Part shown: positions 4,833 through 59,783 of the stretch, piece after piece
Position numbering within the stretch: the first letter of the stretch is position 1
How the letters are laid out: each line of letters opens with the position of its first letter
Assembly (NCBI GenBank): GCA_022508285.1
Contig: JAFLVN010000001.1
Location: 1 to 64,000 of the forward strand
Length of the DNA stretch: 64,000 bases
Origin: Clostridiales bacterium
Lineage (GTDB): Bacteria > Bacillota > Clostridia > Christensenellales > Borkfalkiaceae
Reading direction: 5' to 3'
Position numbers and translations under genes: made by a program
Notes under the pieces: model-generated
What the model saw: the letters and a program-made list of their open reading frames with translations, nothing else
Database searches by the model: none
Told to the model about the DNA's origin: nothing

Positions 4833-4953
4833 AACCGCATATATGCTTCGCATAACTGTGTCGTGCTCCGCTTTTTTAGGGTCATTTACGTTAAAGTAAA
4901 CTCCCCGTCAAAAATGCTCGCACTCCTTGTTCTGCTCGCATCTCTGCGGTTTT
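4833..4953 (+). repeat. Family A intergenic element, copy 1
   Basis: A palindromic element of about 120 bp after the secB-like gene. End stem AACCGCA/TGCGGTT; middle stem TTTTT/AAAAA; apical stem TTTAC/GTAAA with loop GTTAAA. The conserved blocks ATATGCTTCGCATAACT and CTGCTCGCATCTCTG mark the two arms. It is sense to transcription, with no T-run. Confidence 0.9.
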
Positions 4954-4981
4954 AGTTTATTTTAGAAGAACGGAGATACTA

Positions 4982-5758
4982 ATGAAAATAAAGTGGTACG
5001 GCACGGCGACCCTATTGATTGACAGCGGCGGCACACGCATACTTATCGACCCGTACTTAAAACCTTACAACAAAAAGCTTCCGCATGTGCCCTTGAAAGA
5101 GGCGGCTTCGGCGGAAGCGATATTTATAACTCACCCGCACTTGGACCATTTTATTCACGTCGGCGCTTTCACGTGCGGCAACGTCAAAAATATTTATGTT
5201 TCAAAAAACGGGATAGAGCGTGCGCAAAAGCACGGAATATTCCACGAGCTTATGACTCCGCTCGGCGCTGACGAGGAGATTACGGTGGGGGATATCACCG
5301 TGCGAACCTTTCAAAGTCGTCACTGCAAATTCGACGCGGCAGCCGTGCTCGGCATAGTTTTCAATCCGCTTACGTATATTCATCCCGGGCGTGTGGCATC
5401 CATCCTTAAAGATCTTAAGCAGTATAAAATCACCGACGATATCTATGCGCTCGAGGTGTCCTGCGGCGGCAAAAGCATAATGGTGCTCGGCTCGGCGGGC
5501 ATGGAAAAGGGAGTAAGCTATCCCACAGGTGCAGACCTTTTAGTATTCCCATATCAGGGGCGCGCACGTATGCATAAATATATATTGCCCTTTTTGCAGA
5601 CCTTCCGCCCCAAGGCGGTAATGCTCGACCACTTCGACAACGCCTTTCCGCCGTTTACGCATAACGTTAGCACGAAAAAGTTTTTGCCGGCAGTAAAAGA
5701 AAACTTCCCCGAAATAAAAGCTTTCGTGCCCGTGGAAGACGAGTGGTACGAAATTTAA
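4982..5758 (+). CDS. Metallo-beta-lactamase-fold hydrolase (UlaG-like)
   Basis: A 258-aa protein of the metallo-beta-lactamase superfamily. The ITHPHLDH motif at about residues 49-56 supplies the first metal ligands; a later QSRH (about 104-107) and LDHFDNA (about 217-223) fit the remaining ligands. Family relatives include UlaG-type lactonases and many proteins of unknown substrate; the substrate here is unknown. No signal peptide. The start ATG follows ACGGAG. It is separated from the secB-like gene by family A copy 1 and followed by the rpmG promoter. Confidence 0.8.
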   Translation: MKIKWYGTATLLIDSGGTRILIDPYLKPYNKKLPHVPLKEAASAEAIFITHPHLDHFIHVGAFTCGNVKNIYVSKNGIERAQKHGIFHELMTPLGADEEITVGDITVRTFQSRHCKFDAAAVLGIVFNPLTYIHPGRVASILKDLKQYKITDDIYALEVSCGGKSIMVLGSAGMEKGVSYPTGADLLVFPYQGRARMHKYILPFLQTFRPKAVMLDHFDNAFPPFTHNVSTKKFLPAVKENFPEIKAFVPVEDEWYEI

Positions 5759-5786
5759 TAAATTTTAAAATATTTCAAAAAATAAG

Positions 5787-5815
5787 TTGACACCCCCGAA
5801 TTTATGTGGTAAACT
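5787..5815 (+). promoter_or_regulatory. Promoter of rpmG-secE-nusG
   Basis: TTGACA, 17 nt, TAAACT, followed within 6 nt by an attenuator-like hairpin. Confidence 0.8.
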
Positions 5816-5820
5816 CTCTC

Positions 5821-5848
5821 TACACCGCAAAAGGGGTGTAATTTTTTT
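5821..5848 (+). terminator. Attenuator-like hairpin in the rpmG leader
   Basis: Stem TACACC (5821-5826) with GGTGTA (5835-5840) and then seven T (5842-5848), immediately after the promoter and before rpmG. Its position suggests premature termination control of the operon. Confidence 0.6.
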
Positions 5849-5865
5849 GTACGGAGTTTTCCAAC

Positions 5866-6033
5866 ATGGCAACCAAAGCACAAGTCAGAACAAAGATAAC
5901 CTTCGAGTGCACTGAGTGCAAGCACCGCAATTACGACAGCTATAAGAATAAGCGCAACGATCCCGACAGGCTTACTATATCCAAGTACTGCCCGTTCTGC
6001 AAAAAGCACACAGAGCATAAAGAAAGCAAATAA
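5866..6033 (+). CDS. rpmG: 50S ribosomal protein L33
   Basis: A 55-aa L33 of the large ribosomal subunit. It is the zinc-binding form, with C15, C18, C42 and C45. The start ATG follows ACGGAG. The rpmG-secE-nusG order is standard for Firmicutes. Family B copy 1 fills the gap to secE. Confidence 0.97.
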
Positions 6034-6036
6034 TTT

Positions 6037-6136
6037 ACGCCGAAAAACGGCAAGGTGGAATTTACTTCCGCCGTTAAGCCGTTTTACGACTTCACTAACC
6101 TCGCGACAAGTGGAGCTACTGCACCACTTGCGCGAA
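6037..6136 (+). repeat. Family B intergenic element, copy 1 (before secE)
   Basis: A 100-bp structured element from the rpmG stop to the secE ribosome-binding site. Stems: AAAACGGC/GCCGTTTT enclosing GGTGGAA/TTCCGCC, then CAAGTGG/CCACTTG inside CGCG/CGCG. AAGGAG follows 2 nt later. Related copies are at 45209 and 57466, with different but paired stem sequences. Confidence 0.85.
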
Positions 6137-6148
6137 AGGAGTTTATCT

Positions 6149-6379
6149 ATGGCACAAAAAGACACGAGCACAAAAAAGCCCAACATATTCGTTCGTATGG
6201 GCAGAAAATTAAAGGAAACCTTTTCCGAACTTAAAAGGGTAACGTGGCCCACCTTCCCCAAGGTGGTCAAAGCTACGTGCGTCGTTTTGGTCGTCGTACT
6301 TGCCTTTTTGGTTGTTGTAACCGGTATAAACTACGGCTTACAGGCACTTTTAGAAGTATTAACAAATATAGGTCAGTAA
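6149..6379 (+). CDS. secE: Preprotein translocase subunit SecE
   Basis: A 76-aa single-span SecE, the clamp subunit of the SecYEG channel. Seen: basic N terminus, the family signature ELKRVTWPTF (about residues 27-36), then one hydrophobic segment (about 43-63). The ATG at 6149 is chosen because AAAGGAG lies 6 nt upstream and the protein then has the usual length; a longer in-frame start at 6110 lies inside the family B hairpins. Confidence 0.97.
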   Translation: MAQKDTSTKKPNIFVRMGRKLKETFSELKRVTWPTFPKVVKATCVVLVVVLAFLVVVTGINYGLQALLEVLTNIGQ

Positions 6380-6394
6380 TAAGGAGATACCGCT

Positions 6395-6934
6395 ATGGCA
6401 ATGGTAGCCGATACTGAAAATCCCTGCTGGTATATCCTTCACACCTATTCCGGTTACGAAACGATGGTAAGAGACAGTCTTTTCCGTCTTATCGAAAACA
6501 ACAACCTGCAGAACATGATTTTCGACGTTAAAATCCCCATGGAGCAGACCATCGAGGAGAAGAACGGCAAGCGCAAGATAGTAGAGCGCAAACTTTTACC
6601 CTGCTACGTATTCATTAAAATGATATACTCCAACCAGCTTTGGTATTGGGTAACCAACACAAGGGGCGTTACGGGCTTCGTAGGTCCGCAGGGCAGACCC
6701 ATCCCCATGAAGGAAGCTGAAATCCGCAAGATGCGCCTCGAAGAGGTGGTTGTAAACGCAGATTTTGCCGTGGGCGACAGAATTGGAGTAGACAGCGGTC
6801 CTCTGGAGGGCTTCGAGGGCGTTATAACCGAACTCAACGACGCCGCTCAGAAGGCAAAGGTAAACATTCAGATGTTCGGCAGAAATACCGACGTCGAGGT
6901 CGAGTATATCCAGATAAGAAAGCTGGACAATTAA
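6395..6934 (+). CDS. nusG: Transcription antitermination factor NusG
   Basis: A 179-aa NusG, which binds the RNA polymerase clamp and affects pausing and Rho or ribosome coupling. The NGN domain spans about residues 11-115 (WYILHTYSGYE at the start, GVTGFVG near its end), and a KOW domain follows (FAVGDRIGVDSGPLEGFEG). Start ATG with AAGGAG. It lies 16 nt after secE. The stop codon is shared with the first base of family A copy 2. Confidence 0.98.
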   Translation: MAMVADTENPCWYILHTYSGYETMVRDSLFRLIENNNLQNMIFDVKIPMEQTIEEKNGKRKIVERKLLPCYVFIKMIYSNQLWYWVTNTRGVTGFVGPQGRPIPMKEAEIRKMRLEEVVVNADFAVGDRIGVDSGPLEGFEGVITELNDAAQKAKVNIQMFGRNTDVEVEYIQIRKLDN

Positions 6935-7110
6935 ACCGCATATATACTTCGCAATACTGTGTTGCGCTCCGCTTTTGTTCAGGTCACGTACGTTTTAGTA
7001 CGCTCCCTTCCAAAATGCATTGTGAAAATTTTTTACTAACCCTAAAAAATTTTCTACAAAGTGTCGCAAGCTCGCACGTGCGCCTTGTCTTGCTCGCATC
7101 TCTGCGGTTT
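6934..7110 (+). repeat. Family A element, copy 2, with a nested palindrome
   Basis: End stem AACCGCA/TGCGGTT; apical stem CGTAC/GTACG with loop GTTTTA; middle stem TTTT/AAAA. It is about 55 bp longer than the other copies because the 3' arm contains an extra hairpin with 11-bp perfect arms at 7025-7035 and 7043-7053. Confidence 0.88.
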
Positions 7111-7191
7111 ACTTCCGTTTCAACGGACTTTATTTAAATTTTAATTTTTGGCAATTCCGCTTAAATCAAGCGATTTTGTATTTCTGTGGGA

Positions 7192-7221
7192 GGATATATT
7201 AAATCTTTCTATGATATATCC
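7192..7221 (+). promoter_or_regulatory. Hairpin in the rplK leader
   Basis: Perfect 8-bp arms GGATATAT (7192-7199) and ATATATCC (7214-7221) with a 14-nt loop, 28 nt before rplK. L1 represses rplK-rplA mRNA in many bacteria, so this is a candidate control site, but no L1 target motif was proved. The rest of 7111-7249 is AT-rich without another feature. Confidence 0.45.
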
Positions 7222-7249
7222 GTCATAACCACATCGGAGGAAATTTTTT

Positions 7250-7675
7250 ATGGCAAAGAAAATTACTGCTGTCGTAAAACTGCAACTCCCCGCCGGTAAG
7301 GCTACCCCCGCACCCCCCGTAGGTTCTACGCTGGGTCCCCACGGTATCAACATCCCCGGCTTCACCAAGGAGTTCAACGCAAAGACCGCAGCGCAGGCGG
7401 GACTCATTATCCCCTGCGTAGTCACCATCTATCAGGACAGAAGCTTCACGTTCGTTTTAAAGACGCCTCCCACGCCCGTACTCATCAAAAAGGCGTTGGG
7501 AATCGAAACTGCTTCCGCCCGCCCCAACCGCGACAAGGTGGGCAAGCTCACCAAGGCACAGGTTGAAGAAATCGCTAAGACCAAGCTTCCCGACTTAAAC
7601 TGCCACGATTTAGACGCAGCCAAGAGCATGGTCAAGGGCACCGCACGTTCCATGGGCGTTACGGTAGAGGAGTAA
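7250..7675 (+). CDS. rplK: 50S ribosomal protein L11
   Basis: A 141-aa L11, part of the GTPase-associated centre. The N-terminal domain ([17 protein letters not shown]) and the rRNA-binding C-terminal domain are complete. CGGAGG precedes the ATG. It is followed 13 nt later by rplA. Confidence 0.98.
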
Positions 7676-7688
7676 GGAGGTACGAGCT

Positions 7689-8378
7689 ATGAAGATGTCT
7701 AAAAAGTATGCAGAAAGCGTAAAATCGTACGACCGCTCCAAGTCTTATGACGTAGCCGAGGCAGCCAAAATTGCAATCGATACGGCAAAGGCCAAGTTCG
7801 ACGAAACTATAGAACTCCACATCCGTTTGGGCGTTGACCCCCGTCAGGCAGACCAGCAGGTCCGCGGCGTGTTGGTTCTTCCCAACGGTACAGGTAAAAC
7901 TCAGCGCGTATTAGTTATCGCTAAAGGCGACAAGGCGGACGCGGCTCAGGCTGCCGGTGCAGACTACGTAGGCGCAGAAGAAACCATTCAGCGTATTCAG
8001 TCGCAGAACTGGTTCGAGTTCGACGTAATGATTACCACCCCCGACATGATGGGTATGGTAGGTAGAATAGGTCGTATCCTCGGACCTAAGGGCTTGATGC
8101 CCAACCCCAAGAGCGGTACCGTTACTATGGACGTTGCTAAAGCCGTTAAAGAAGTTAAGGCAGGTAAGGTTGAATACCGTCTCGATAAAACGGCTATAAT
8201 CCACGTACCCATCGGCAAAAAGTCTTTCGGTCCCGAAAAGCTTATCGAAAACTTCAACGCTCTTATGGACGCAATCGTAAAGGCAAAGCCCGCCGCAGCA
8301 AAGGGACAGTATATTAAGTCTGTTACCATGGCTGCGACTATGGGTCCCGGCGTTAAAGTCACTTATAATAAGGGTTAA
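7689..8378 (+). CDS. rplA: 50S ribosomal protein L1
   Basis: A 229-aa L1 of the L1 stalk; in many bacteria it also represses its own operon. The signature [21 protein letters not shown] is present (about residues 119-139). AAGGAGG precedes the start; a second ATG two codons later is a possible alternative. Family A copy 3 and a terminator follow. Confidence 0.98.
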
Positions 8379-8381
8379 GCT

Positions 8382-8504
8382 AAAATTTAATATATACGTC
8401 GCATAACTTTGTCAAGCTCCGTTTTCCTTCGGGTCATTTACGCAAAAGTAAACTCCCCTCGGAAATACTCGCTTTCCTCGTTCTGCTCGTATCTCTTAAA
8501 TTTT
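8382..8504 (+). repeat. Family A element, copy 3
   Basis: Starts 4 nt after the rplA stop. The end stem is AAAATTTAA/TTAAATTTT, unlike copies 1 and 2 but still perfectly paired. Middle stem TTTTCC/GGAAA; apical stem TTTAC/GTAAA with loop GCAAAA. Confidence 0.9.
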
Positions 8505-8530
8505 GAATTGCTTGATAACAACTTAAATCA

Positions 8531-8557
8531 AAAAGCGGAGCAAATTGCTCCGCTTTT
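8531..8557 (+). terminator. Terminator after rplK-rplA, usable from both sides
   Basis: AAAAGCGGAGC and GCTCCGCTTTT arms with a 5-nt loop and T-rich flanks on both strands. It ends the rplKA transcript and the convergent HTH gene. Confidence 0.85.
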
Positions 8558-8567
8558 AATTTTGCGT

Positions 8568-8774
8568 TTAATGTTCTTTGGGGTCGATAAGATAATCGGC
8601 AGTAACTTCGTAAAAACGACAAATGGCTAATAAATCTTTGTAAGACGGCTCTTGATAGCCGCACTCCCAGTGAGATAGTGTAGGAATAGTAATCGAAAGA
8701 GCGGTAGCAACCTGTTTTTGTGTTAAACCTCTTTCGGCACGCAATTCTCTGAGTTTTTCATTAAAAGCTTTCAT
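8568..8774 (-). CDS. XRE-family HTH regulator (module 2)
   Basis: A 68-aa single-domain Cro/C1-type repressor: LTQKQVATALSITIPTLSHWE is the helix-turn-helix (about residues 17-37), then PSYKDLLAICRFYEVTADYLI. A TAAAAT -10 box ends exactly 6 nt before the ATG and no Shine-Dalgarno is present, so the mRNA is probably leaderless. It is divergent from a DUF6809-like gene and inserted between rplA and rplJ. Confidence 0.88.
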   Translation of the reverse strand: MKAFNEKLRELRAERGLTQKQVATALSITIPTLSHWECGYQEPSYKDLLAICRFYEVTADYLIDPKEH

Positions 8775-8780
8775 ATTTAA

Positions 8781-8838
8781 ATTTTATCATAAAAATTATC
8801 GTTTTTCGATTGACAGTCGAAAAACGATACATTATAAT
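8781..8838. promoter_or_regulatory. Divergent promoters with a 12-bp inverted repeat operator
   Basis: Inverted repeat ATCGTTTTTCGA (8798-8809) and TCGAAAAACGAT (8817-8828) is perfect. The plus promoter's TTGACA (8810-8815) fills the centre; its 17-nt spacer covers the right arm and TATAAT is at 8833-8838. The minus promoter uses TCGAAA in the left arm with TAAAAT at 8781-8786. Binding would block both directions. Confidence 0.8.
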
Positions 8839-8867
8839 TATTATTGCAAATAAGTTAGAGGTGAATT

Positions 8868-9131
8868 ATGAAATCACAGTTGGAAGAATTATATTATGAT
8901 AGCGAGGGGTTTGTTGAAAAAATTAAGAGAAGTAGAGAATATGATAGAGTTAATGATAAGTACGAAGAGGTTTACAAGCAGTTGCTTGAAGAACTCAACG
9001 ATAAGCAAAAAAAATTGTTTGACGAGTTATATTATTTAACGGGCGGGTTGGAATCGGAAACGGCATTAACTCACTTCAAAGAGGGATTTAAATTTTGTAT
9101 GCGCCTGATATTCGAGGGAATAGGCAGGTAA
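8868..9131 (+). CDS. DUF6809-like helical protein (module 2)
   Basis: An 87-aa, highly charged, helical protein (MKSQLEELYYDSEGFVEKIK) with no known function. It is nearly the same length and clearly homologous by eye to the product of 54602 (shared MKSQLEELYY, GGLESE, THFKEGFKF) and more distantly to 3743. The DUF6809 label is from memory. GAGGTG precedes the ATG. It is controlled from a promoter overlapped by the operator of the divergent XRE gene and is an insertion into the ribosomal-protein cluster. Confidence 0.75.
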   Translation: MKSQLEELYYDSEGFVEKIKRSREYDRVNDKYEEVYKQLLEELNDKQKKLFDELYYLTGGLESETALTHFKEGFKFCMRLIFEGIGR

Positions 9132-9179
9132 AAACTTAAAAATTTCAACTTAAAAATTTGATAAAACAAATAAAAACGG

Positions 9180-9208
9180 TTGACACACCTTTTTTTTGGC
9201 TATATAAT
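9180..9208 (+). promoter_or_regulatory. rplJ-rplL promoter
   Basis: TTGACA, 17 nt, TATAAT: full consensus, directly before the L10 leader. Confidence 0.92.
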
Positions 9209-9226
9209 ACATTAGAAAAATAAATT

Positions 9227-9357
9227 TGCTGCCGTAGACAGTCGGTGCTCAAGGGCTTAATTTCCGACCGAGGTTGCAGGATAAGATAAGTATAAACAAG
9301 GATTTTCCTTTATGCTGTTCCCTGCTCCCTTGCGGAAGCAGGGAATTTGTTTTTTAA
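9227..9357 (+). ncRNA. Ribosomal L10 leader with attenuator
   Basis: The region after the promoter has the L10-leader layout: TGCTGCC pairs toward GGTTGCA, with GTCGG/CCGAC inside, as the L10(L7/L12)4 binding region. It ends in a terminator hairpin TTCCCTGC (9318-9325) with GCAGGGAA (9338-9345) and a T-rich tract. Excess L10-L12 complex would favour termination before rplJ. Confidence 0.85.
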
Positions 9358-9379
9358 CTCTTAAAAGGAGGAAAAAGAC

Positions 9380-9901
9380 TTGTCGGCTAATTTTGAAGCA
9401 AAAAAAGTAGTAGTTGCAGAGATAACCGAAAAAATCAAAGCGTCGAAGTCTGTGGTTTTCGTTGACTACAACGGACTGACCGTCGCAGAGGTTTCAGCTC
9501 TCCGCAACAAGTGCAGGGAAGCCGGCTGCGAATACAAGGTTTATAAAAATACCCTTGTAAGGAAGGCTCTCAACGACTTGGGCTTTAAGGACTTCGATAG
9601 TGACCTCAACGGTCCCACCGCAATGGCATTCGGTAAGGACGAGACGGGCGCAGCTAAAATTATGGCTACCGCCGCAAAGGACTACGAAAAGAAGATAACC
9701 TTAAAGAGCGCATTCGTTGACAACTCGTACGTCGACAAAAAGGGCGTATCGGCGCTTGCTACGATGCCCTCGAAGGAAGAGCTTTTGGCAAAATTGCTCG
9801 GTTCTTTGCAGGCACCCATCGCAAACCTTGCGGGAGTCCTCAACAATATGCTTGCGGCACTTCCCCGTGCACTCAACGCCGTCGCAGAAAAGAAGGCGTA
9901 A
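9380..9901 (+). CDS. rplJ: 50S ribosomal protein L10
   Basis: A 173-aa L10, the base of the L7/L12 stalk. The start is TTG, fixed by AAAGGAGG upstream and the conserved beginning; no in-frame ATG gives a full N terminus. Typical features: VVFVDYNGLTVAEVSALR and YKVYKNTLVRKAL. Residues after about 135 are the L12-binding helix. Regulated by the L10 leader. Confidence 0.97.
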   Translation: MSANFEAKKVVVAEITEKIKASKSVVFVDYNGLTVAEVSALRNKCREAGCEYKVYKNTLVRKALNDLGFKDFDSDLNGPTAMAFGKDETGAAKIMATAAKDYEKKITLKSAFVDNSYVDKKGVSALATMPSKEELLAKLLGSLQAPIANLAGVLNNMLAALPRALNAVAEKKA

Positions 9902-9977
9902 ACCACAAACAGGCGACCGCCGCCTAAGAAAAAGTGCGTAAACAAAAAATAAAAAAATAATTAGGAGAAATAAAAAA

Positions 9978-10361
9978 ATGGCAGACGTAAAGAAAATGAT
10001 CGAAGACATCAAGAGCATGACCGTTCTTGAGCTCAATGAACTTGTAAAGGCAATCGAAGAGGAGTTCGGCGTAAGTGCAGCAGCTCCCGTAGCAGTAGCG
10101 GCAGCTCCCGCAGCAGGCGCAGCTGCAGCAGCAGCTCCCGCAGCTGAAGAGAAGACCGAATTCAACGTAGTATTAAAGGACGCAGGCGCTAAGAAGATCG
10201 ACGTTATCAAAGTTGTTCGCGCATTCACCGGCCTTGGACTTGTTGAAGCAAAGACCGCAGTTGAAAAGGGTGGCGTTCTTAAAGAGAACGTTGCTAAGGA
10301 AGAGGCAGAAAAGATTGCTGCTGACCTTAAAGCTGCAGGCGCAACCGTTGTTCTTGAGTAA
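9978..10361 (+). CDS. rplL: 50S ribosomal protein L7/L12
   Basis: A 127-aa L7/L12, present in multiple copies on the stalk to recruit translation factors. An N-terminal dimerisation domain (1-33) and an Ala/Pro-rich hinge (about 34-55) precede the C-terminal domain with [21 protein letters not shown] precedes the start. A strong terminator follows; rpoB and rpoC do not. Confidence 0.98.
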
Positions 10362-10373
10362 TTAAAAAATAAC

Positions 10374-10410
10374 GCCGCAGAGCGAAATTCGCTCTGCGGC
10401 TTATTTTTTT
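10374..10410 (+). terminator. Terminator after rplL
   Basis: 13-bp perfect stem (10374-10386 with 10388-10400) followed by TTATTTTTTT. Confidence 0.95.
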
Positions 10411-10430
10411 ATAATTTCCGATTAAATTGC

Positions 10431-10459
10431 TTGACGAGGGGCGCAAATAAAAGTAAAAT
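10431..10459 (+). promoter_or_regulatory. Promoter upstream of the 282-bp element and lipoprotein gene
   Basis: TTGACG, 17 nt, TAAAAT. The inverted-repeat element 10472-10753 lies between this promoter and the gene at 10773. Confidence 0.65.
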
Positions 10460-10471
10460 GTTAGGGCATAG

Positions 10472-10753
10472 TAGCCGCATTGTAACAATTTAAAACATGG
10501 TTTTGGAATACGTATTTTGGCTTATTCTTCGTCAAAGCCCTTGGCAATCCGTCTTTGGATTAACCGCGGTCTTTTCCTTGACTAATCTCAAAATCTGTTA
10601 TCCCAAAACTGCGAAGCACTCAAACGAGCGTCTTTGCGGTTGATTTATATTCGCAGCGACTGAGGCGTACAAAGACGTACGCAGAGGGAGCGGCGGAGAG
10701 AAAGCGGCGCAAATCCGCCGTTTGAGCAGTTCTAAATTGTTACAATGCGGCTA
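10472..10753. repeat. 282-bp element with perfect 21-bp terminal inverted repeats
   Basis: The ends at 10472-10492 and 10733-10753 are perfect 21-bp inverted repeats beginning TAGCCGCATTGTAAC. The terminal TA could be a TA target duplication, as in mariner/IS630-type MITEs. No ORF of note. One half contains its own palindrome, with CTCAAACG/CGTTTGAG and AACTGC/GCAGTT arms around a GCGTAC/GTACGC hairpin like the family A apex. It sits in the 5' leader of the lipoprotein gene. Confidence 0.85.
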
Positions 10754-10772
10754 AAATTGGGAATATAATATT

Positions 10773-28108: not shown

Positions 28109-28743
28109 TGAACGTTGTCCTACTCGGGGCTCCGGGAGCGGGCAAGGGTACGCAGGCGAGCATGCTTGCAGATAAGTACAACCTGTTGCATATCTCCACC
28201 GGCGATATATTCCGTGCCAACATAAAGGGCGGCACAAAAATCGGCAAGCTCGCCAAGTCTTATATAGACAAGGGTCAGCTTGTTCCCGACGAAGTCACGT
28301 GCGATATCGTAAAGGATAGGCTTGCCCAAAAGGATACAAGTTGCGGCTACATGCTCGACGGCTTCCCCCGCAACCTCTTCCAAGCAAAAGAGCTGGATAA
28401 GTTTGCAAGTATTGATTACTGCCTGAATATAGACGTTCCTTTGGGGCTTCTCATGGACAGGATATGCGGCAGAAGAGTTTGCACCTGCGGCGAAAGCTAT
28501 CACGTATCAACGCTTGGCGGCGCAACAACCTGTTTAAAGTGCGGGAAGGAGCTTTATCAACGAGCAGACGATAACCCCGAAACGGTGGGAGCAAGGCTGA
28601 AAACATATACACAGCAGACCGCACCACTTATAGATTACTATAAGGCGCAGGGCAAGCTGATAAGTGTTGACGGCAACGGCTCTCCCAAGGAGGTCTTCGC
28701 AAGAATCTGCGAAGCCCTCAAAGCTCCCGCCAACCGCATATAA
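28108..28743 (+). CDS. adk: Adenylate kinase
   Basis: A 211-aa enzyme converting AMP and ATP to two ADP. The P-loop GAPGAGKGT is at residues 7-15. The lid carries C125, C127, C142 and C145, a zinc-binding lid as in many Gram-positive enzymes. It starts in TAATG shared with secY. Its last codons (Asn-Arg-Ile-stop) are the left end of family A copy 6, so the element helped define the C terminus. Confidence 0.97.
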   Translation: MNVVLLGAPGAGKGTQASMLADKYNLLHISTGDIFRANIKGGTKIGKLAKSYIDKGQLVPDEVTCDIVKDRLAQKDTSCGYMLDGFPRNLFQAKELDKFASIDYCLNIDVPLGLLMDRICGRRVCTCGESYHVSTLGGATTCLKCGKELYQRADDNPETVGARLKTYTQQTAPLIDYYKAQGKLISVDGNGSPKEVFARICEALKAPANRI

Positions 28744-28852
28744 GCATCATTCTGCTGTGTTGCCTTTACGTTTTTCTTCGGGTTATTTACGATTTAGTAA
28801 ACTCCCCTCGAAAATCCGCAGGCGCCTTGCATAACTCGCTTCTCTGCGGTTG
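28731..28852 (+). repeat. Family A element, copy 6 (overlaps adk 3' end)
   Basis: End stem CAACCGCA/TGCGGTTG, the left arm being coding sequence of adk. Middle stem TTTTTC/GAAAA; apical stem TTTAC/GTAAA with loop GATTTA. Confidence 0.9.
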
Positions 28853-45194: not shown

Positions 45195-45208
45195 TTTAAA
45201 AATTTTTA

Positions 45209-45308
45209 ACGCCGAAAACCGTAGGCTGGATTGATTTCAGCCGTGAGCGGTTTACGACACTATTATAAAAAATCGCGACAAATCGCGCTACTGCACGATT
45301 TGCGCGAA
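45209..45308 (+). repeat. Family B intergenic element, copy 2 (before tsf)
   Basis: Same plan as 6037 and 57466. AAACCG/CGGTTT encloses GGCTG/CAGCC; then CGCG/CGCG encloses CAAATCG/CGATTTG. The shared blocks ACGCCGAAAA, TTTACGAC and CTACTGCAC are present. AAGGAG follows 4 nt later. Confidence 0.85.
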
Positions 45309-53821: not shown

Positions 53822-53911
53822 ATCTCTTTGCCTATCGCTCAAGTATTACCTTGCCGATTCAAAGGGTATAATCTCAGCCGTGCGTTTCAGGTTTTGCACA
53901 GCACCCCCGAC
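53822..53911 (-). ncRNA. TPP riboswitch (THI element)
   Basis: Minus strand carries GTCGGGGGTGC, then GGCTGAGATTATACCC and GATAGGCAAAGAGA, the conserved THI-box order. With TPP bound it should favour the downstream terminator and lower thiT expression. Confidence 0.88.
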
Positions 53912-53931
53912 GGAATTTAATTTATAATCAA

Positions 53932-53960
53932 ATTATATTGCTAAACAAGCATAAAGTCAA
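53932..53960 (-). promoter_or_regulatory. thiT promoter
   Basis: Minus strand TTGACT, 17 nt, TATAAT. Its -35 box abuts the -35 box of the divergent promoter. Confidence 0.88.
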
Positions 53961-53989
53961 TTGAATTTTGCGGAAAAATGTTATATAAT
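53961..53989 (+). promoter_or_regulatory. Promoter of the YfbR-like gene
   Basis: TTGAAT, 17 nt, TATAAT, back to back with the thiT promoter. Confidence 0.8.
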
Positions 53990-54013
53990 TGATAAAAATT
54001 ACAGAGGTGAAGT

Positions 54014-54598
54014 ATGTCCTACAATTTTTATGCGTTCATGGACAGAATGAAGTATATAAAGCGCTGGCAGCTTATGCGCTCGGTGCGCTCGGAAAATATA
54101 ATGGAGCACTCAGAACAGGTCGCTATGCTCGCACACGCACTTGCAGTAATAAATAATAAGGTGTTCAAAGGAAAGGCAGACGCCGAAAAGTGCGTGCTGT
54201 ACGCCGTCTATCACGAGTGCAGCGAGGTTATGACGGGGGATATGCCCACGCCAATAAAGTATTTCAACAACTCCATACACGGCGCATACAAGCAGCTTGA
54301 GGAGAGGGCATGCGATAAACTGCTTTTAACCCTGCCCGAGGAATTAAGGGGAGAGATAGAAAAATCGGTAAAACCGGATGAAACTTCCGTTGAATATTCT
54401 CTTATGAAGGCGGCGGACAGGCTTGCGGCGTACGTAAAGTGCCTTGAAGAGCTACGCAGCGGCAACAACGAGTTTGTAAAAGCCGAAAAATCCATAAAAG
54501 AGGATTTGCTCTCCCGCAAAATGCCCGAGGTAAATTACTTTTTCGAGCACTTTATCCCGAGCTTCAGTTTAACCCTTGACGAATTAGAAGGAATATAA
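54014..54598 (+). CDS. YfbR-like 5'-deoxynucleotidase (HD domain)
   Basis: A 194-aa HD-fold phosphohydrolase resembling YfbR, which removes the 5' phosphate from deoxynucleoside monophosphates. RWQLMRSVRSENIMEHS (about 17-33) and SEVMTGDMPTPIKYFN (70-85) match the family. The central HD pair reads HE (H67-E68), a conservative change at a metal ligand. AGAGGTG precedes the ATG. Convergent with the DUF6809-like gene, 3 nt apart. Confidence 0.88.
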   Translation: MSYNFYAFMDRMKYIKRWQLMRSVRSENIMEHSEQVAMLAHALAVINNKVFKGKADAEKCVLYAVYHECSEVMTGDMPTPIKYFNNSIHGAYKQLEERACDKLLLTLPEELRGEIEKSVKPDETSVEYSLMKAADRLAAYVKCLEELRSGNNEFVKAEKSIKEDLLSRKMPEVNYFFEHFIPSFSLTLDELEGI

Positions 54599-54601
54599 TT
54601 T

Positions 54602-54865
54602 TTACTTGCTTATTCCTTCAAATATAAGATGCATACAAAACTTAAATCCCTCTTTAAAGTGAGTTATACCCGCTTCCGATTCCAGCCCGCCCGATAAATA
54701 GTATAATTCGTCAAGCAATTTCTTTTGCTCTTCGTTAAGACTTTCAAGCAACCCCTCATAAACCTTTTCAAACTCTTCATTAACTTTTTTATATTCCCGA
54801 CTTACACTTATTCTTTCTACAAGCCCCTCGCTGGCATAATATAGTTCTTCCAACTGTGATTTCAT
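54602..54865 (-). CDS. DUF6809-like helical protein, orphan copy
   Basis: An 87-aa protein, same length as the one at 8868 and closely similar (MKSQLEELYYASEGLVERI, GGLESEAGITHFKEGFKF). The ATG at 54865 follows AAAGGA; an upstream in-frame start adds an unrelated hydrophobic segment and is rejected. No HTH gene is beside it, but a palindrome TCACGA/TCGTGA lies upstream, so the regulator may have been lost or lie elsewhere. Function unknown. Confidence 0.75.
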   Translation of the reverse strand: MKSQLEELYYASEGLVERISVSREYKKVNEEFEKVYEGLLESLNEEQKKLLDELYYLSGGLESEAGITHFKEGFKFCMHLIFEGISK

Positions 54866-54941
54866 AATTTTTTCCTTTATTTTAATTACAATCTTTTCAA
54901 ATATTTTCGTAAATATTATACCTATAAATCGTAACAAATGC

Positions 54942-54963
54942 TTGACAATCACGAAAATCGTGA
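54942..54963 (+). promoter_or_regulatory. Orphan operator-like palindrome with -35 box
   Basis: TTGACA (54942-54947) is followed by the palindrome TCACGAAAATCGTGA (54949-54963) where a spacer would be, but the -10 position reads CAAATT. It resembles the other modules' promoters and may be a decayed divergent promoter. Confidence 0.45.
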
Positions 54964-55044
54964 GCAAATTTTATTTGGCAGAACCGATTATTGAGGCAAG
55001 TAGAAAGAGTAAGTCTGCTTGAATTAGAAACAAAAGCAATTCTG

Positions 55045-55162
55045 CGGTCATTAGAAACAAGCAAGACAAGGCGAGCGAGTACCGCCGCAGGGCGTGTACA
55101 TGGAGGTACATAACCAAGGCGGCACGGAGTTCAACGCAGTATTGCGAAGTTTATAATAACCG
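55045..55162 (-). repeat. Family A element, copy 12 (minus strand)
   Basis: Outer stem CGGT-ATTA-AAAC with GTTT-TAAT-ACCG (single mismatches between blocks). Middle stem GCCGCC/GGCGGT; apical stem TGTAC/GTACA with loop CTCCAT. It is sense to the minus-strand RNA that ends just upstream at 55168. Confidence 0.87.
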
Positions 55163-55167
55163 TAACA

Positions 55168-55194
55168 TAAAAGCCCCGTGAATTCCACGGGGCT
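55168..55194 (-). terminator. Terminator of the 55.2-55.5 kb RNA
   Basis: AGCCCCGTG with CACGGGGCT (55172-55180 and 55186-55194), followed on the minus strand by TTTTATG. Confidence 0.75.
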
Positions 55195-55346
55195 ATATAT
55201 TTAAATTATTCAGTTTTGATTGCGAGGATACTTTCACACGGTTGCCTTTCGGCTAATCGGTCTATGGACCCTGCAACCTCGGCATGGTTGCTAAACTTTT
55301 AACCGTATCAGATTGTAACCTCTGAAATGAAGTGGTACATTGGTCT

Positions 55347-55394
55347 TTACCTGCCTTTTTGAGTAATGGTGCGATTCGGGTTTAGCCTTTTCAT
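55347..55394 (-). CDS. 15-codon ORF in the unidentified RNA
   Basis: Reads MKRLNPNRTITQKGR, a basic peptide, then TAA. AGGAGGAAAGCTT directly before the ATG is one of the best Shine-Dalgarno sites in the window. It may be a small protein or a leader peptide whose translation alters the downstream fold. No homologue is known to me. Confidence 0.5.
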   Translation of the reverse strand: MKRLNPNRTITQKGR

Positions 55395-55482
55395 AAGCTT
55401 TCCTCCTGCATCATTCAAAACACACTTTTAAAATATGTTAGCGCTTAACATTTTTTGTGAGTTATTTTCTTTTCTTGGTTTT

Positions 55483-55510
55483 ATTATAGCATACAAAAGG
55501 TGCTTGTCAA
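55483..55510 (-). promoter_or_regulatory. Promoter of the unidentified RNA
   Basis: Minus strand TTGACA, 16 nt, TATAAT: full consensus hexamers. Confidence 0.88.
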
Positions 55511-55589
55511 GGGGTAACTCAAAAAAAATTTAAAAAATTTTTAAAAAGCGATCACCGCCTTTAAAACGTTAGATTTTTGAAAGTATTAG

Positions 55590-55598
55590 TGATATAAT
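55590..55598 (+). promoter_or_regulatory. Extended -10 promoter of the antiporter gene
   Basis: TGATATAAT, an extended -10 with no good -35, 33 nt before the start codon. Confidence 0.6.
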
Positions 55599-55631
55599 TT
55601 GTGCATATTACAGAGGATGTGAAATTCAGGT

Positions 55632-57077
55632 ATGTTTGACGGCAATACTGCGCTGGGATTTGCGGCGGTTCTTGCAATAATTTTATTAAGCAGTAAGCTA
55701 CTCGGTCTCTTATTCAGAAAAATAGGCATACCGCAGGTGCTCGGCTTTATCGTCGCAGGTATTTTAATCGGACCTGCAATCTTCGGCGATTTTTGCGGAT
55801 TCAGCCTTATAGGCTTTGAGGGGAAAGGGTACACATCTCTTTTTGTACTTCCGCAAAGCGGAGAAATGTCCGACTTTTTATCCGATTTGTTCGGTAGAGA
55901 AGTGACAATTTCAAACGGTCTGGATATTTTTGCAAAAATCGGCGTATTGCTTTTAATGTTCTCCGCAGGGTTAGAAACGAACTTAAACGAGCTCAAACGC
56001 ACGGGTGTTGCCGCCGTTTTAATGGCGTGCGCAGGCGTTGCTGTGCCGATGATACTCGGTTTTGCAATCTCCATGCCGTTCGGCGGAATAGGTCTCGGCT
56101 TTGCCCAAACGGCAAATATATTCCGTTCGATATTCATAGGTACAATCTTAACCGCAACGAGCGTAGCCATAACAGTATCAGTGCTCAAAGAGCTTGGCAA
56201 AATCCGCAGTAAGCTTGGCACGACCATAGTGTCGGCTGCCATAATCGACGACGTCATAGGAATAGTGCTGTTATCCGTCGTCACGGGTATCGCCAGAGCG
56301 GGGTCGGCTACGGGAAACATGAACGGCTTCGACGCTTTTAAAAGCACGATATACGGTACTATAATAATGATTGTCTGCTTCTTCGTGTTTGCGTTTGTGG
56401 CGGGCATAGGTATACATTACATATTCCACTGGCTGGAAAAGAAGAGAGCGACCACCCACCGTATTCCTATATTCTCGCTTGCAATATGCTTTTTGTACAG
56501 CTGGATTGCCGAAGAAATTTTCGGTGTTGCCGACATAACCGGCGCATTCCTTGCGGGTGTTGTTCTCTCCACTGCGCACCGAGCCAGCGCCTACGCCGAC
56601 AGCAAGATAGAGGTGTGCACGTACACGCTGTTTGCGCCCGCCTTCTTTGCCAATATAGGAATATCCGCAATACACTTTACGGGGTTGAACGGCGAAATAA
56701 TTCTGTTTGCCCTGCTTGCAGTGCTCGTTGGGCTTATAGGAAAGATTATCGGATGCGGAGCAGTCTGCAAGGCGTTTAAGTATAACTGGCGGGAGAGCGC
56801 AATAGGCGGAGTGGGAATGATGGCGCGCGGAGAAGTTGCGCTTATTGTTACGTCAACGGTCACAAACGCTACCGTTCTCGGCACAAACGCACTGCCTGAA
56901 AAATTTATGATTATGACAGTGCTTTTAATTCTGGTTTCGTCTATACTCACGCCCATACTCTTAAAGTTGCTGTACAGCGACAAACCGACCCTGCATTTCC
57001 ACAGGCGGAGCGGCAAGTACGGCGGTCACAGTCACGGCGACGAGAGCGCACCCGAGTTCCCCGAACAGATAGATTAA
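55632..57077 (+). CDS. CPA2-family cation:proton antiporter
   Basis: A 481-aa membrane protein with about 12-13 spans, a monovalent cation/proton antiporter of the NapA/KefB type. GIPQVLGFIVAGILIGP near the start, AIIDDVIGIVLL (transport-site Asp pair, about 202-213) and GMMARGEVALIV (about 396-407) are typical. No RCK domain; the short C-terminal tail is His-rich (KYGGHSHGDES). GAGGATGTG precedes the ATG. Na+ versus K+ is undetermined. Own terminator. Confidence 0.92.
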   Translation: MFDGNTALGFAAVLAIILLSSKLLGLLFRKIGIPQVLGFIVAGILIGPAIFGDFCGFSLIGFEGKGYTSLFVLPQSGEMSDFLSDLFGREVTISNGLDIFAKIGVLLLMFSAGLETNLNELKRTGVAAVLMACAGVAVPMILGFAISMPFGGIGLGFAQTANIFRSIFIGTILTATSVAITVSVLKELGKIRSKLGTTIVSAAIIDDVIGIVLLSVVTGIARAGSATGNMNGFDAFKSTIYGTIIMIVCFFVFAFVAGIGIHYIFHWLEKKRATTHRIPIFSLAICFLYSWIAEEIFGVADITGAFLAGVVLSTAHRASAYADSKIEVCTYTLFAPAFFANIGISAIHFTGLNGEIILFALLAVLVGLIGKIIGCGAVCKAFKYNWRESAIGGVGMMARGEVALIVTSTVTNATVLGTNALPEKFMIMTVLLILVSSILTPILLKLLYSDKPTLHFHRRSGKYGGHSHGDESAPEFPEQID

Positions 57078-57081
57078 TAAA

Positions 57082-57116
57082 GCGGCGCCGATTTCTCGGC
57101 GCCGCAAACTTTTTTT
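57082..57116 (+). terminator. Antiporter terminator
   Basis: GCGGCGCCGA with TCGGCGCCGC, then AAACTTTTTTT. Confidence 0.93.
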
Positions 57117-57130
57117 AAAAATTAATTTTA

Positions 57131-57175
57131 GTCAAGTAAAAATACTTGACAAGCGTCGGAGATATGTAATAAAAT
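57131..57175 (+). promoter_or_regulatory. ylxM-ffh promoter with overlapping inverted repeat
   Basis: TTGACA (57146-57151), 18 nt, TAAAAT (57170-57175). The inverted repeat GTCAAGTA (57131-57138) and TACTTGAC (57143-57150) covers the -35 box and could be an operator. Confidence 0.65.
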
Positions 57176-57202
57176 CTTGTCAAGCTGTAAAGCTTTACGG
57201 TT

Positions 57203-57466
57203 ATGAACAAATTGGAATTTATGCGGCTGTGGGACGCCTACTCGGCATTGCTTACTCCCACCCAGCAGGAGATTACAAATTTATATTTCAATCTCGACTT
57301 AACTTTGTCTGAGATCGCCGCAGAAAAGGGCATAACCCGTCAGGCTGTTTCCGACTGCATGAGCGGCTGCAAAAAGCAGCTTGAAGAGTACGAAAGTAAG
57401 CTCCACGTGGTAGAGCTCACAAACGAATTACAGCAGCTAAAAGAGATAATTTCAAAAAATAATTAA
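57203..57466 (+). CDS. ylxM: YlxM-type SRP-associated HTH protein
   Basis: An 87-aa sigma-factor-region-4-like helix-turn-helix protein: LTPTQQEITNLYFNLDLTLS, then IAAEKGITRQAVSDCMSGC. YlxM lies next to ffh in most Firmicutes and has been reported to act on SRP GTPase activity in streptococci. No strong Shine-Dalgarno is seen before the ATG. Family B copy 3 links it to ffh. Confidence 0.93.
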   Translation: MNKLEFMRLWDAYSALLTPTQQEITNLYFNLDLTLSEIAAEKGITRQAVSDCMSGCKKQLEEYESKLHVVELTNELQQLKEIISKNN

Positions 57467-57563
57467 CGCCGAAAAACGTAGCTCGGATTCATTTCGAGCG
57501 TTAAGCGTTTTTACGACTTCAGCAATCTCGCTACAAGCCGTGTCGTTGCACGGCTTGAGCGAA
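57466..57563 (+). repeat. Family B intergenic element, copy 3 (before ffh)
   Basis: AAAAACG/CGTTTTT encloses GCTCG/CGAGC; then TCGCT/AGCGA encloses CAAGCCGTG/CACGGCTTG. Shared blocks ACGCCGAAAA and TTTTACGAC. Starts at the last base of the ylxM stop and ends about 17 nt before ffh. Confidence 0.85.
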
Positions 57564-57579
57564 TAGGATTAGGTGACAG

Positions 57580-58893
57580 ATGTCGATTTTTGGGTCGTTA
57601 TCCGAAAGATTAAACCATATATTTTCAAAGCTCACAAAGCGTGGAAGGCTCACGGAGCTTGAAATAAAAACGGCTATGCGCGAGGTGCGTGTGGCTCTTT
57701 TAGAGGCGGACGTAAACATACAGGTCGCCAAAAAGTTCTGTGCCGACGTTTCCGAAAAGGCTGTAGGTCAGGAGATTTTAAAGTCTTTAAACCCCGCACA
57801 GCAGGTAATTAAAATCGTTAACGAAGAGCTCATCGCTTTAATGGGTTCGCAAAATCAGAAGCTCAATATCGCACCCAAGCCCCCTACGGTGATTATGATG
57901 TGCGGTTTGCAGGGTGCAGGTAAAACTACTTTATGCGGAAAGCTTGCGGCATACCTTAAAAAGAACGGCAAAAAGCCGCTTTTGGTCGGGTGCGACATAT
58001 ACCGTCCCGCAGCGATAAACCAGCTCAAAGTGGTGGGCAAAAATGCGGGTGCGGAAGTTTTTGAAAAGGGCACGCAGAACCCCGTTAAAACGGCAAAGGA
58101 AGCGGTTGAGTACGCACGCTCGATGGGCTTCGATAACGTAATTATAGACACGGCGGGGCGGTTAGAGATTGACGAACCGCTGATGCAGGAGCTCGAGGAA
58201 ATTAAAAAGGCGGTAGACGTTTCGGAAATTCTTCTCACCGTCGACAGCATGATGGGTCAGGTTGCCGTAAACGTTGCAAAGACCTTTAACGAGAGGCTCG
58301 AAGTAACGGGCGTTATTTTAACCAAGCTCGACGGCGACACCCGCGGCGGCGCATGTCTTTCGATAAAGGCGGTTACGGGCAAGCCCATAAAGTTTATAGG
58401 CGTGGGCGAAAAACTGGGCGATTTAGAGCCCTTCTATCCCGACAGAATGGCGTCACGTATTCTCGGCATGGGCGACGTTTTAACGCTCATTGAAAAGGCG
58501 CAGGAGGCTGTCACCGAGGAACAGGCGAGGGTCATGCAGAAAAAGATGCTCGAAAACACCTTCACCTTAGAGGACTATTTAGTTCAGTTCGAGAGCATGA
58601 AAAAGATGGGCGGAGCGCAGGCGCTGCTTGCGATGATGCCTGGAAATTTGGGCGGCAAGGTCCGTGCCGAGGACATCGACGAAAGAAAGATAGAGCGCAC
58701 CAAGGCGATAATCCTTTCCATGACACAAAAAGAGCGTGTAGACCCGTCTATTATAAACGCTTCCAGAAAGAAGAGAATTGCACAAGGTTCGGGCACTTCC
58801 GTACAGGAAATAAATCAATTACTCAAACAGTTTGACCAAACAAAACAGTTAATGAAACAGTTGAAGGGCGGAAAGAGAAGACTTCCGTTTTAA
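57580..58893 (+). CDS. ffh: Signal recognition particle protein Ffh
   Basis: A 437-aa SRP54 GTPase that binds signal peptides and 4.5S/6S RNA and targets ribosomes to FtsY and SecYEG. N domain 1-90, G domain with GLQGAGKTTLCGKLA (about 109-123), DTAGR and TKLDGD, and a shortened M domain from about 300. Start ATG with AGGTGACAG upstream. Next gene rpsP. Confidence 0.98.
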   Translation: MSIFGSLSERLNHIFSKLTKRGRLTELEIKTAMREVRVALLEADVNIQVAKKFCADVSEKAVGQEILKSLNPAQQVIKIVNEELIALMGSQNQKLNIAPKPPTVIMMCGLQGAGKTTLCGKLAAYLKKNGKKPLLVGCDIYRPAAINQLKVVGKNAGAEVFEKGTQNPVKTAKEAVEYARSMGFDNVIIDTAGRLEIDEPLMQELEEIKKAVDVSEILLTVDSMMGQVAVNVAKTFNERLEVTGVILTKLDGDTRGGACLSIKAVTGKPIKFIGVGEKLGDLEPFYPDRMASRILGMGDVLTLIEKAQEAVTEEQARVMQKKMLENTFTLEDYLVQFESMKKMGGAQALLAMMPGNLGGKVRAEDIDERKIERTKAIILSMTQKERVDPSIINASRKKRIAQGSGTSVQEINQLLKQFDQTKQLMKQLKGGKRRLPF

Positions 58894-58938
58894 ATAAAAA
58901 AATAAAAAATATATATAAATTCCAAGGAGTAAAAACAA

Positions 58939-59235
58939 ATGGCAGTAAAAATGAGACTTACCAGAATGGGCGACAAAAAGAGCCCCTTCTACCGTATCGT
59001 GGTTATCGATTCCCGCAAGGCGCAGTCGGGCGAGTACATCGACAAAGTGGGCTACGTTGATCCCCTCAAGACCCCCGCAGAAATCAACATCGACGTTGAA
59101 AAAGCTAAGGCTTGGCTTGCAAAGGGCGTTCAGCCTACCGAAACGGTAAAGAGCTATCTCGTTAAGGTCGGCGCAATGGAGCAGAGCACGAAGCTCTCTG
59201 CACCCAAGACCAATAATAAAAAGAAGAAAGACTAA
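58939..59235 (+). CDS. rpsP: 30S ribosomal protein S16
   Basis: A 98-aa S16 of the 30S body. Start [20 protein letters not shown] is conserved. AAGGAG precedes the ATG. Head of the rpsP-khpA-rimM-trmD set. Family A copy 10 follows the stop. Confidence 0.98.
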
Positions 59236-59239
59236 GTTT

Positions 59240-59360
59240 AAACTGCGTATATGCGGCGCAATACTGTGTTGCCTTTACGTTTTCCCTCGGTTACATACGT
59301 CTATGTATGCTCCCGTCGGTAATCCGCAGGCGCCTTGTCTTGCTTGCATCTCCACAGTTT
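59240..59360 (+). repeat. Family A element, copy 10
   Basis: Between rpsP and khpA. End stem AAACTG/CAGTTT. Apical stem CATAC/GTATG, unique among the copies but paired, with loop GTCTAT. Confidence 0.9.
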
Positions 59361-59387
59361 ATAATTGTATTTTTTAAGGAAATATTT

Positions 59388-59627
59388 ATGGAACTCGAAT
59401 TAATTAAGTACGTAGTCGAGCGCTTTGCCGAGAGCAAGGACGAGATAGAGTACAAGGTTGAAGAAAAGGAAACTTCTGTAGAAGTGACCGTGCTTCTCGC
59501 CGCAAGCGACATGGGCAAGGTTATCGGCAAGCAGGGCAAAATTGCCAAGGCTCTGCGCACCTTAGTCAGTGCGTCCACACCCCGTGGCGGCAAGCGCTAC
59601 TTTGTAGAGATTAAAGAAAAAAACTAA
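59388..59627 (+). CDS. khpA: KH-domain RNA-binding protein KhpA
   Basis: A 79-aa single KH domain with the GKVIGKQGKIAKALR loop (about 45-59). In streptococci KhpA pairs with KhpB and affects cell size and sRNA levels. The ATG at 59388 follows AAGGA; upstream in-frame starts fall in the family A copy. Standard position between rpsP and rimM. Confidence 0.95.
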   Translation: MELELIKYVVERFAESKDEIEYKVEEKETSVEVTVLLAASDMGKVIGKQGKIAKALRTLVSASTPRGGKRYFVEIKEKN

Positions 59628-59663
59628 GCATTATCGCGCAAAATTTTTTGCGCGATTATTGCT

Positions 59664-59783
59664 AACTTCGTATATGCGGCGCAATACTGCGTTGCCTTTG
59701 CGTTTTGCTTGGGTCACGTACGCCAAAGTACGCTCCCCGACGCAAATCCGCAGGCGCCTTGTCTTGCTTGCATCTGCGAAGTT
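59664..59783 (+). repeat. Family A element, copy 11
   Basis: Between khpA and rimM. End stem AACTTCG/CGAAGTT; middle stem TTTTGC/GCAAA; apical stem CGTAC/GTACG with loop GCCAAA. Its last base starts the -35 box of a rimM promoter. Confidence 0.9.

Follow-up and report, generated by a model that had tools for sequence, protein, structure and literature searches.

REPINs, hairpins formed by doublets of repetitive extragenic palindromes (REPs), show compensatory changes in their spacers and have been proposed to be mobilised in trans (PMC3116915), and REPs carrying a CGTC tag, which count 'S. lithotrophicus' among their positive species, are described as having no dedicated transposase (PMC3733652). 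Here we describe an element of about 110-150 bp, one strand of which folds into a single long hairpin with conserved small internal loops, present in 12 copies in positions 1 to 64,000 of contig JAFLVN010000001.1 (the window), part of a metagenome-assembled genome (MAG) of a gut Clostridia bacterium (G000: 1.47 Mb, 97 contigs). The element is dispersed, covaries, turns over between species, has in one case moved duplicatively, tolerates wobble pairs on one strand, lies at gene ends and has target duplications in a betaproteobacterial form. We consider it somewhat probable that it is a non-autonomous mobile hairpin, similar in behaviour to a REPIN or a miniature inverted-repeat transposable element (MITE), with a putative enzyme recognising its structure on one strand and moving it.

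Like the REPINs and REPs associated with the Y1-type RAYT transposases, the element consists of dispersed, extragenic hairpins that mostly lie downstream of genes and carry compensatory changes, and mobilisation in trans has been proposed for those systems as well (PMC3116915, PMC3733652). REPs are, however, an inverted pair of 20-40 bp with GTAG/CGTC end tags (PMC3733652), while the element is a rod of about 130 nt with drifting ends, and no constant GTAG/CGTC tag is found at the ends of 123 clostridial copies, which vary. The element also differs in the 4-bp duplications of its betaproteobacterial form and in a copy number that is not tracked by Y1_Tnp genes. The CGTC-tagged REPs (dRS3, RPE-4/6) share with it a distribution across phyla and the lack of a known transposase, and 'S. 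lithotrophicus' is one of their named hosts, but they have stems of 8-9 bp and loops of 4-5 nt (PMC3733652), whereas the element has about seven helices with CGTC, where present, in an internal position. REPINs are thus closest in behaviour, and the CGTC REPs in distribution and lack of a transposase.

The bacterial MITEs (ERIC, NEMIS/Correia, RUP) are similar in size, hairpin shape, position adjoining genes and, for some copies of the betaproteobacterial form, target duplication. An earlier reading made from the letters of the window (the sequence-only reading) took the element to be dispersed and MITE-like, which agrees with our results, and compared its layout to ERIC or NEMIS, a likeness that holds for size and hairpin shape and goes no further. 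MITEs have terminal inverted repeats of 15-30 bp and resemble degenerate insertion sequences (PMC3733652), while the ends of the element vary by compensation and its conserved part is internal; since the ends covary there are no constant terminal inverted repeats of a parent insertion sequence. Integron attC sites are recombination sites folded from one strand, with arms that depend on pairing, and are located directly after stop codons, but in G000 the element occurs as single copies behind housekeeping genes, with neither cassette arrays nor fixed outer boxes (no attC model was run). Paired short palindromes and defining tags are absent, and the element therefore works like a REPIN or MITE but is a member of neither group. 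A literature search that included the core sequence, with most subscription journals outside its coverage, gave no paper describing such an element.

The 12 copies of the sequence-only reading are all present where it placed them (Table 1), and a covariance model (R1) trained on ten of them, with the two long-insert copies 37361 and 6927 excluded, returned exactly 12 matches in the window at E<=0.01, both excluded copies among them. Its tally of the apical stems (TTTAC in four copies, CGTAC in five, TGTAC in two, CATAC in one) is also correct, but the arm blocks it described as common are alike only approximately, with the exact TCGCAATACT in 4 of the 12 copies and the exact CTTGTCTTGCTCGCATCTC in 2. 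As it had supposed, no known family was found among the curated models of Rfam 15: in the window no model matches on the element at the gathering score, and in ten loci none does at E<=5.

The rod is built of a variable P1 of about 9 bp at the element ends, P2, the core helix P3, P4, P5, P6 and the apical P7. A clostridial alignment was made of 133 matches with E<=1e-12, taken from 100 fetched sources and giving 126 distinct rows. In it 92.1% of the 4132 pairing cells are paired, two-sided changes are found at 29 of 33 base pairs, including 9 of 9 in P1, and the covariation score is 0.575 compared to 0.164 for shuffled and 0.07-0.12 for slid alignments, although these values lean towards structure because the alignment was fitted to the covariance model. 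RNAalifold on a MAFFT alignment of the 10 copies lacking long inserts agrees, predicting 30 pairs of which 22 have two-sided changes. The proposed covariation thus persists in a larger alignment, and several helices show that the folded rod is kept, although, as discussed below, the selected fold is probably not that of the strand from which it had been read.

The core helix P3 has exactly one non-Watson-Crick position out of seven in 110 of the 126 copies and two in the remaining 16. The single mismatch is always T·C (104 copies) or C·T (6) and is located at position 5 (84) or 4 (26). The main forms are GCAATAC/GTCTTGC (79 rows), GCATAAC/GTTCTGC (15) and the arm-swapped GTTCTGC/GCATAAC (6), and all three retain one pyrimidine mismatch, corresponding to G·A on the complementary strand. 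Complementarity could also arise by mutation alone, if one arm is rewritten from the other by template switching (quasipalindrome correction); the swapped arms and the nearly pure Watson-Crick pairing, with two-sided changes lacking intermediates (P7, for example, has 617 Watson-Crick, 3 G·T and 0 A·C pairs), are what this process should give. It should also remove internal mismatches, but none of the 126 copies is free of them in P3, and it leaves the asymmetry between A·C and G·T described next unexplained, so we regard it as quite improbable.

A fold maintained in RNA is expected to contain G·U well above A·C. On the strand used in the sequence-only reading, the pairs of the 126 clostridial copies comprise 3733 Watson-Crick, 110 A·C, 74 G·T and 215 other combinations. 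Twelve pairs have at least six A·C or G·T cells, and six of these favour A·C (19:1, 8:1, 9:1, 17:0, 10:3 and 13:0). Without P5 and P6, the genome of the window has 42 A·C against 15 G·T and the other clostridial rows have 45 against 31. The bias is stronger in the Betaproteobacteria, with 14:1 in P1 (columns with a Watson-Crick consensus in the 20 of 31 copies that have GG and CC at the expected ends, two columns with A·C consensus excluded) and 35:2 in P5 (29 of 31 copies, the arms set by best Watson-Crick fit). As an RNA control, the terminator stem of the L10 leader in 30 genomes of the genus shows the reverse, with 19 G·T, 3 A·C, 237 Watson-Crick and 11 other pairs; the second stem of this leader, with 150 Watson-Crick pairs and neither mismatch, is uninformative, and 20 distinct tRNAs of the fetched loci have 39 G·T among 424 drawn pairs, where A·C is not countable as ARAGORN draws allowed pairs only. 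An A·C on the strand as read is a G·T wobble on its complement, indicating that the complement is probably the selected fold.

The gene context of the 53 copies in G000 was assigned by a simple ORF (open reading frame) heuristic. The upstream gene is co-oriented with the element in 46 copies. Of the copies in tandem contexts 34 are sense and 2 antisense; a further 11 are convergent, 5 divergent and 1 open. Altogether 30 copies start at -3..+7 of an upstream same-strand stop codon. On contig 1 (184 kb) 8 of 16 copies start at -4..+10 of such a stop codon, where 5000 random draws gave a mean of 0.67 with random strands (maximum 5) and 0.91 with the real strands (maximum 6). Terminator-like hairpins precede copies 37361, 46267, 59657 and, on the minus strand, 55040, and Pfam matches identify neighbouring genes such as S17/L14, L6/L18, adenylate kinase/peptidase M24 and S16/KH-domain. 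Orientation by the replication fork was discarded on the window alone (no genome-wide test was made), where copy 55040, the only one on the minus strand, follows transcription in its orientation, since the hairpin preceding it is read on the minus strand.

This placement, together with compensatory differences between the copies at L6/L18 in two species, would be in agreement with a functional RNA on the mRNA strand, a rod in the 3' untranslated region that stabilises, processes or terminates the upstream transcript. Relative to the upstream gene, however, the complement is the template strand in 46 of 53 copies, and a function in the mRNA is therefore an unlikely source of the covariation. 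The excess of G·U over A·C on the transcribed strand that a cis-acting mRNA structure should show is missing overall, P3, P5 and P7 of the Clostridia excepted, and an RNA rod on the mRNA strand was rejected as the best reading on the A·C excess, opposite to that of the L10 leader. Efficient termination is disfavoured, barring internal promoters, because copies are located between the S17 and L14 and the L6 and L18 genes, inside one ribosomal protein operon. With most comparable sites also lacking a full copy in a relative (17 of 19, see below), we hold this alternative to be unlikely.

The number of copies is very uneven among relatives. At E<=0.01 the covariance model finds the 53 matches of G000, including two weak or partial ones that score 34.8 and 32.4 bits, and with stricter filters a match is present in 39 of 61 genomes (G000 and 60 relatives). 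Within the genus the counts run from 0 (G008, G018 and G025) to 56 (G006), which argues against a housekeeping role, and in other families of the order 5 of 24 genomes have any match. The stretches L063:1501-1611, retaining mainly the core, and L064:1501-1560, lacking the rod, are diverged or internally deleted relatives of the element in G000 that may illustrate decay of copies. Elements in head-to-tail runs, abutting or about 20 nt apart, were seen at L159:6116-6379, L118:6568-6849, L173:5062-5488 and L150:1-250.

Turnover was followed in the relative G073, of which about 0.385 Mb was fetched, containing 8 model matches with the L074 locus counted. Both flanks were found together there for 19 of the 53 G000 copies, and 17 of these 19 intervals have no model match, the site of 37361 being a rod-deleted remnant and that of 46267 a stretch resembling the left end. 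The other two are an orthologue of copy 24995 and, in a loose interval of 825 nt, a copy in opposite orientation at the site of 55040. Identity between the orthologues at L6/L18 is 78%, which ranks 1 among 53 with a median of 0.58, and compensatory changes separate them, CTCGCAA/TTGCGAG against CACGCAA/TTGCGTG and CGTAC/GTACG against TGTAC/GTACA. Behind the rpsP stop codon a copy is present in 7 of 28 genomes of the genus with a printable interval (G000, G009, G006, G075, G072, G019 and, degenerate, G024), and in similarity to the G000 copy these rank, among 53, as 1 (G019), 7 (G006), 12 (G009), 20 (G075) and 37 (G072), which suggests that some are independent insertions and some possibly inherited; independent re-insertion as a general rule was discarded as the ranks fit some species only. 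The G000 copies 6927 and L061 have in common an insert of about 57 nt, with 172 of 188 aligned columns identical, while their flanks are unrelated and only about 47% alike, and they are therefore direct evidence of duplication.

The element might instead encode a small RNA on the minus strand or, as a duplex or cruciform, serve as a platform for DNA-binding proteins, in the way that bacterial interspersed mosaic elements do for IHF or gyrase. The minus-strand wobble and the purine mismatches conserved there, G·A being the complement of T·C, are consistent with this, but no conserved flank capable of promoting transcription is visible in the 123 copies (no promoter scan was made), species of one genus have from 0 to 56 copies, and a site bound as duplex is expected to conserve the sequence of its helices, which drift. 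We therefore judge this explanation unlikely.

A gapped core pattern was searched against the genome contigs of GTDB and gave at least 116 stretches, of which 80 were listed as loci; the hosts of these 80 are mostly gut Clostridia and MAGs of the iron-oxidising Gallionellaceae or of other Nitrosomonadales/Rhodocyclaceae, and the closest proteins to those of the window among them are from 'Clostridiales bacterium UBA11940' (L105), with up to 96% identity. The exact core is carried by 34 of 100 genomes in the family of a Sideroxydans MAG (G093), with up to 23 copies, and by 6 of 391 genomes, from three genera, in the class of the window. The letters of the pattern are identical across phyla by construction of the search. 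Outside it, 29 of 31 betaproteobacterial copies have GTC in front of the left core and GCG in front of the right one, letters that are common but not universal in Clostridia. The left part of the apical module is T[CT][AG] in 119 of 120 clostridial copies (the stem was obtained from 120 of 123) and in 29 of 31 betaproteobacterial ones, and the right part is CTCC in 100 of 120 of the former and CTGC or CCGC in 25 of 31 of the latter. The helices other than the core and apical module differ between the two forms. Locus L128, labelled 'Alphaproteobacteria', is probably a mis-binned contig, because it is nearly identical to the Clostridia match L104 from the same sample. In the Ruminococcus MAG G106 (genome of L160; C95, C102) the left core is fused to a repeated unit of another kind, GCCAGCCTTGCTGCGTCCTT, which perhaps represents a related type of element.

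The ends of the betaproteobacterial element have the form GGN...NCC, and by requiring a start GGN and a complementary finish they could be assigned in 24 of 31 copies, 7 being dropped. Perfect 4-bp direct repeats (TATA, TTGA, ATGA, TTTA, ATAA and TGTA) flank 6 of these 24, where re-paired flanks give an expectation of 0.43, with doubtful ends in 3 of the 24 copies, two of which look orthologous; one further copy has a 5-bp repeat (TTCTA). The third base of the ends varies and pairs in 20 of 20 copies, for which GG and CC had been the sole selection criterion. Of the copies in tandem contexts 11 are sense and 3 antisense, and the start lies at -1..+7 of a same-strand stop codon in 10 of the 31 copies.

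A mobiliser was looked for among four enzyme families. Y1_Tnp (PF01797) is found in 18 of 61 genus genomes but is absent from the copy-rich G006, G014, G024, G027 and G030, and RVT_1 (PF00078), DDE_Tnp_1 (PF01609) and Transposase_20 (PF02371), present in 6, 3 and 1 of 19 chosen genomes respectively, do not track copy number either; G006, G027 and G030 lack all four families with 56, 34 and 37 copies. Three candidate split pairs, all in L176, were read as separate elements. Carriage by phages or plasmids was rejected, as there is no match to the exact core pattern in viral contigs, to one betaproteobacterial and one clostridial copy in phages, or in plasmids to one betaproteobacterial copy, the only query used there.

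The element could also be of REPIN type, moved by a RAYT/Y1 transposase that has since been lost from these genomes. REPIN hairpins with compensatory spacer changes (PMC3116915) and the CGTC REPs, lacking a dedicated transposase and occurring in 'S. lithotrophicus' (PMC3733652), speak for it. In G000 there is a single Y1_Tnp match, interrupted by a stop, but the copy-rich genomes named above have none and the element ends have no constant GTAG/CGTC tag. Duplications of 4 bp are not expected of Y1 enzymes, and they are found in the betaproteobacterial form. We give this possibility little weight.

A mobile hairpin of the kind that we favour would depend on a structure-specific enzyme, supplied in trans, whose target is the complementary (minus) strand, folded into its hairpin as single-stranded DNA. 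The features recognised may be the core helix, including its G·A mismatch and loop, and the apical module, with pairing as the sole requirement for the remaining helices. Insertion would take place at sites ending in T-rich...A, which stop codons and the U-tracts of terminators should supply in sense orientation, and copies at 3' ends would survive because neither coding sequences nor promoters are broken. For most small bacterial repeats recognition depends on fixed terminal sequences, while in this element most helices, those at the ends among them, are free to change provided that they still pair, and a short internal core with one sliding mismatch in two phyla implies an enzyme that reads the shape of a hairpin on a chosen strand. 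Such an enzyme, if found, would represent a new system for single-strand DNA recombination or transposition, inserting just past stop codons and leaving genes intact. More tentatively, the element may define a new class of mobile hairpins in Bacillota and Pseudomonadota, with ends read by shape on one strand, the mismatched core as main sequence tag, a putative enzyme that moves it, and insertion at stop codons and terminator tails. The count of A·C against G·T is a cheap test of the folded strand for any covarying repeat.

Several observations weigh against a mobile hairpin recognised on the complementary strand. The clostridial A·C bias is weaker overall than the betaproteobacterial one (110 A·C to 74 G·T), and its cells are not independent events because the sequences are related. 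Among the 12 pairs mentioned above, G·T prevails at four, namely flank pairs 6 and 7 plus two in P5, and two are tied, and the ratio of A·C to G·T is reversed in clostridial P3 (4:7), P5 (5:18) and P7 (0:3), the numbers being small in P3 and P7 and P5 being poorly aligned. No convincing target duplication was found in 123 clostridial copies, where the top-scoring offsets were inside the palindrome or at chance level for the offsets tried. Each of the four enzyme families is absent from copy-rich genomes, so that no mobiliser was found among them, and the 1.84 Mb of fetched sequence, a total that counts overlaps, showed no autonomous split copy. The compensatory differences between the L6/L18 orthologues suggest some selection on resident copies, which a purely selfish element does not need.

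Table 1. Copies of the element in the window, with scores of the covariance model R1.
Position	Strand	Description	Evidence
4826..4956	+	Starts 6 nt past stop codon of ORF 4390-4824	R1 125.6 bits
6927..7114	+	Overlaps stop codon of ORF 6395-6934; insert of ~57 nt common to copy L061	R1 70.6 bits
8377..8507	+	3 nt past stop codon; end stem AAAATTTAA/TTAAATTTT	R1 123.2 bits
22146..22276	+	Follows S17 gene, followed by L14 gene	R1 131.9 bits; Pfam S17, L14
24995..25125	+	Between L6 and L18 genes; orthologous copy in G073 with compensatory differences	R1 111.8 bits
28725..28856	+	Between adenylate kinase and peptidase M24 genes; arms of core helix swapped	R1 123.7 bits
30288..30417	+		R1 127.3 bits
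37361..37515	+	Soon after terminator-like hairpin; insert of ~22 nt; rod-deleted remnant at syntenic G073 site	R1 79.7 bits
46267..46397	+	Soon after terminator-like hairpin	R1 108.6 bits
55040..55169	-	Sole minus-strand copy; preceded by terminator-like hairpin 55173-55197 (minus)	R1 112.4 bits
59234..59364	+	Directly past S16 (rpsP) stop codon, which is occupied in other species too	R1 132.7 bits
59657..59788	+	After terminator-like hairpin of KH-domain gene, before rimM-like gene	R1 134.7 bits

The reading frame of adk enters copy 28725, so that its final residues and stop codon are encoded by the element (window 28700-28760). The site of 59657 is without a copy in G073 and occupied in G009, and the rimM-like label of the gene that follows is given by operon order only. 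The minus strand at 55173-55490 has a promoter-like TTGACA/TATAAT, after which come about 300 nt that contain no long ORF, then a terminator-like hairpin, and motifs including AATGTACCACTT and ATCTGAT are common to the syntenic DNA of G073 (L258); no Rfam match above gathering was found (best E 0.06), and the region is a candidate RNA or leader. A second dispersed repeat, AACGCCGAAAA.CGTAG...GATT.ATTTC..., is present at 6053-6136, 45198-45253 and 57455-57563 with 71-75% likeness, and a similar stretch adjoins the copy of L008. An inverted repeat of 271 nt, 8864-9134 and 54599-54869, is 82% complementary and overlaps small ORFs, one of which (54602-54967) matches DUF6809.

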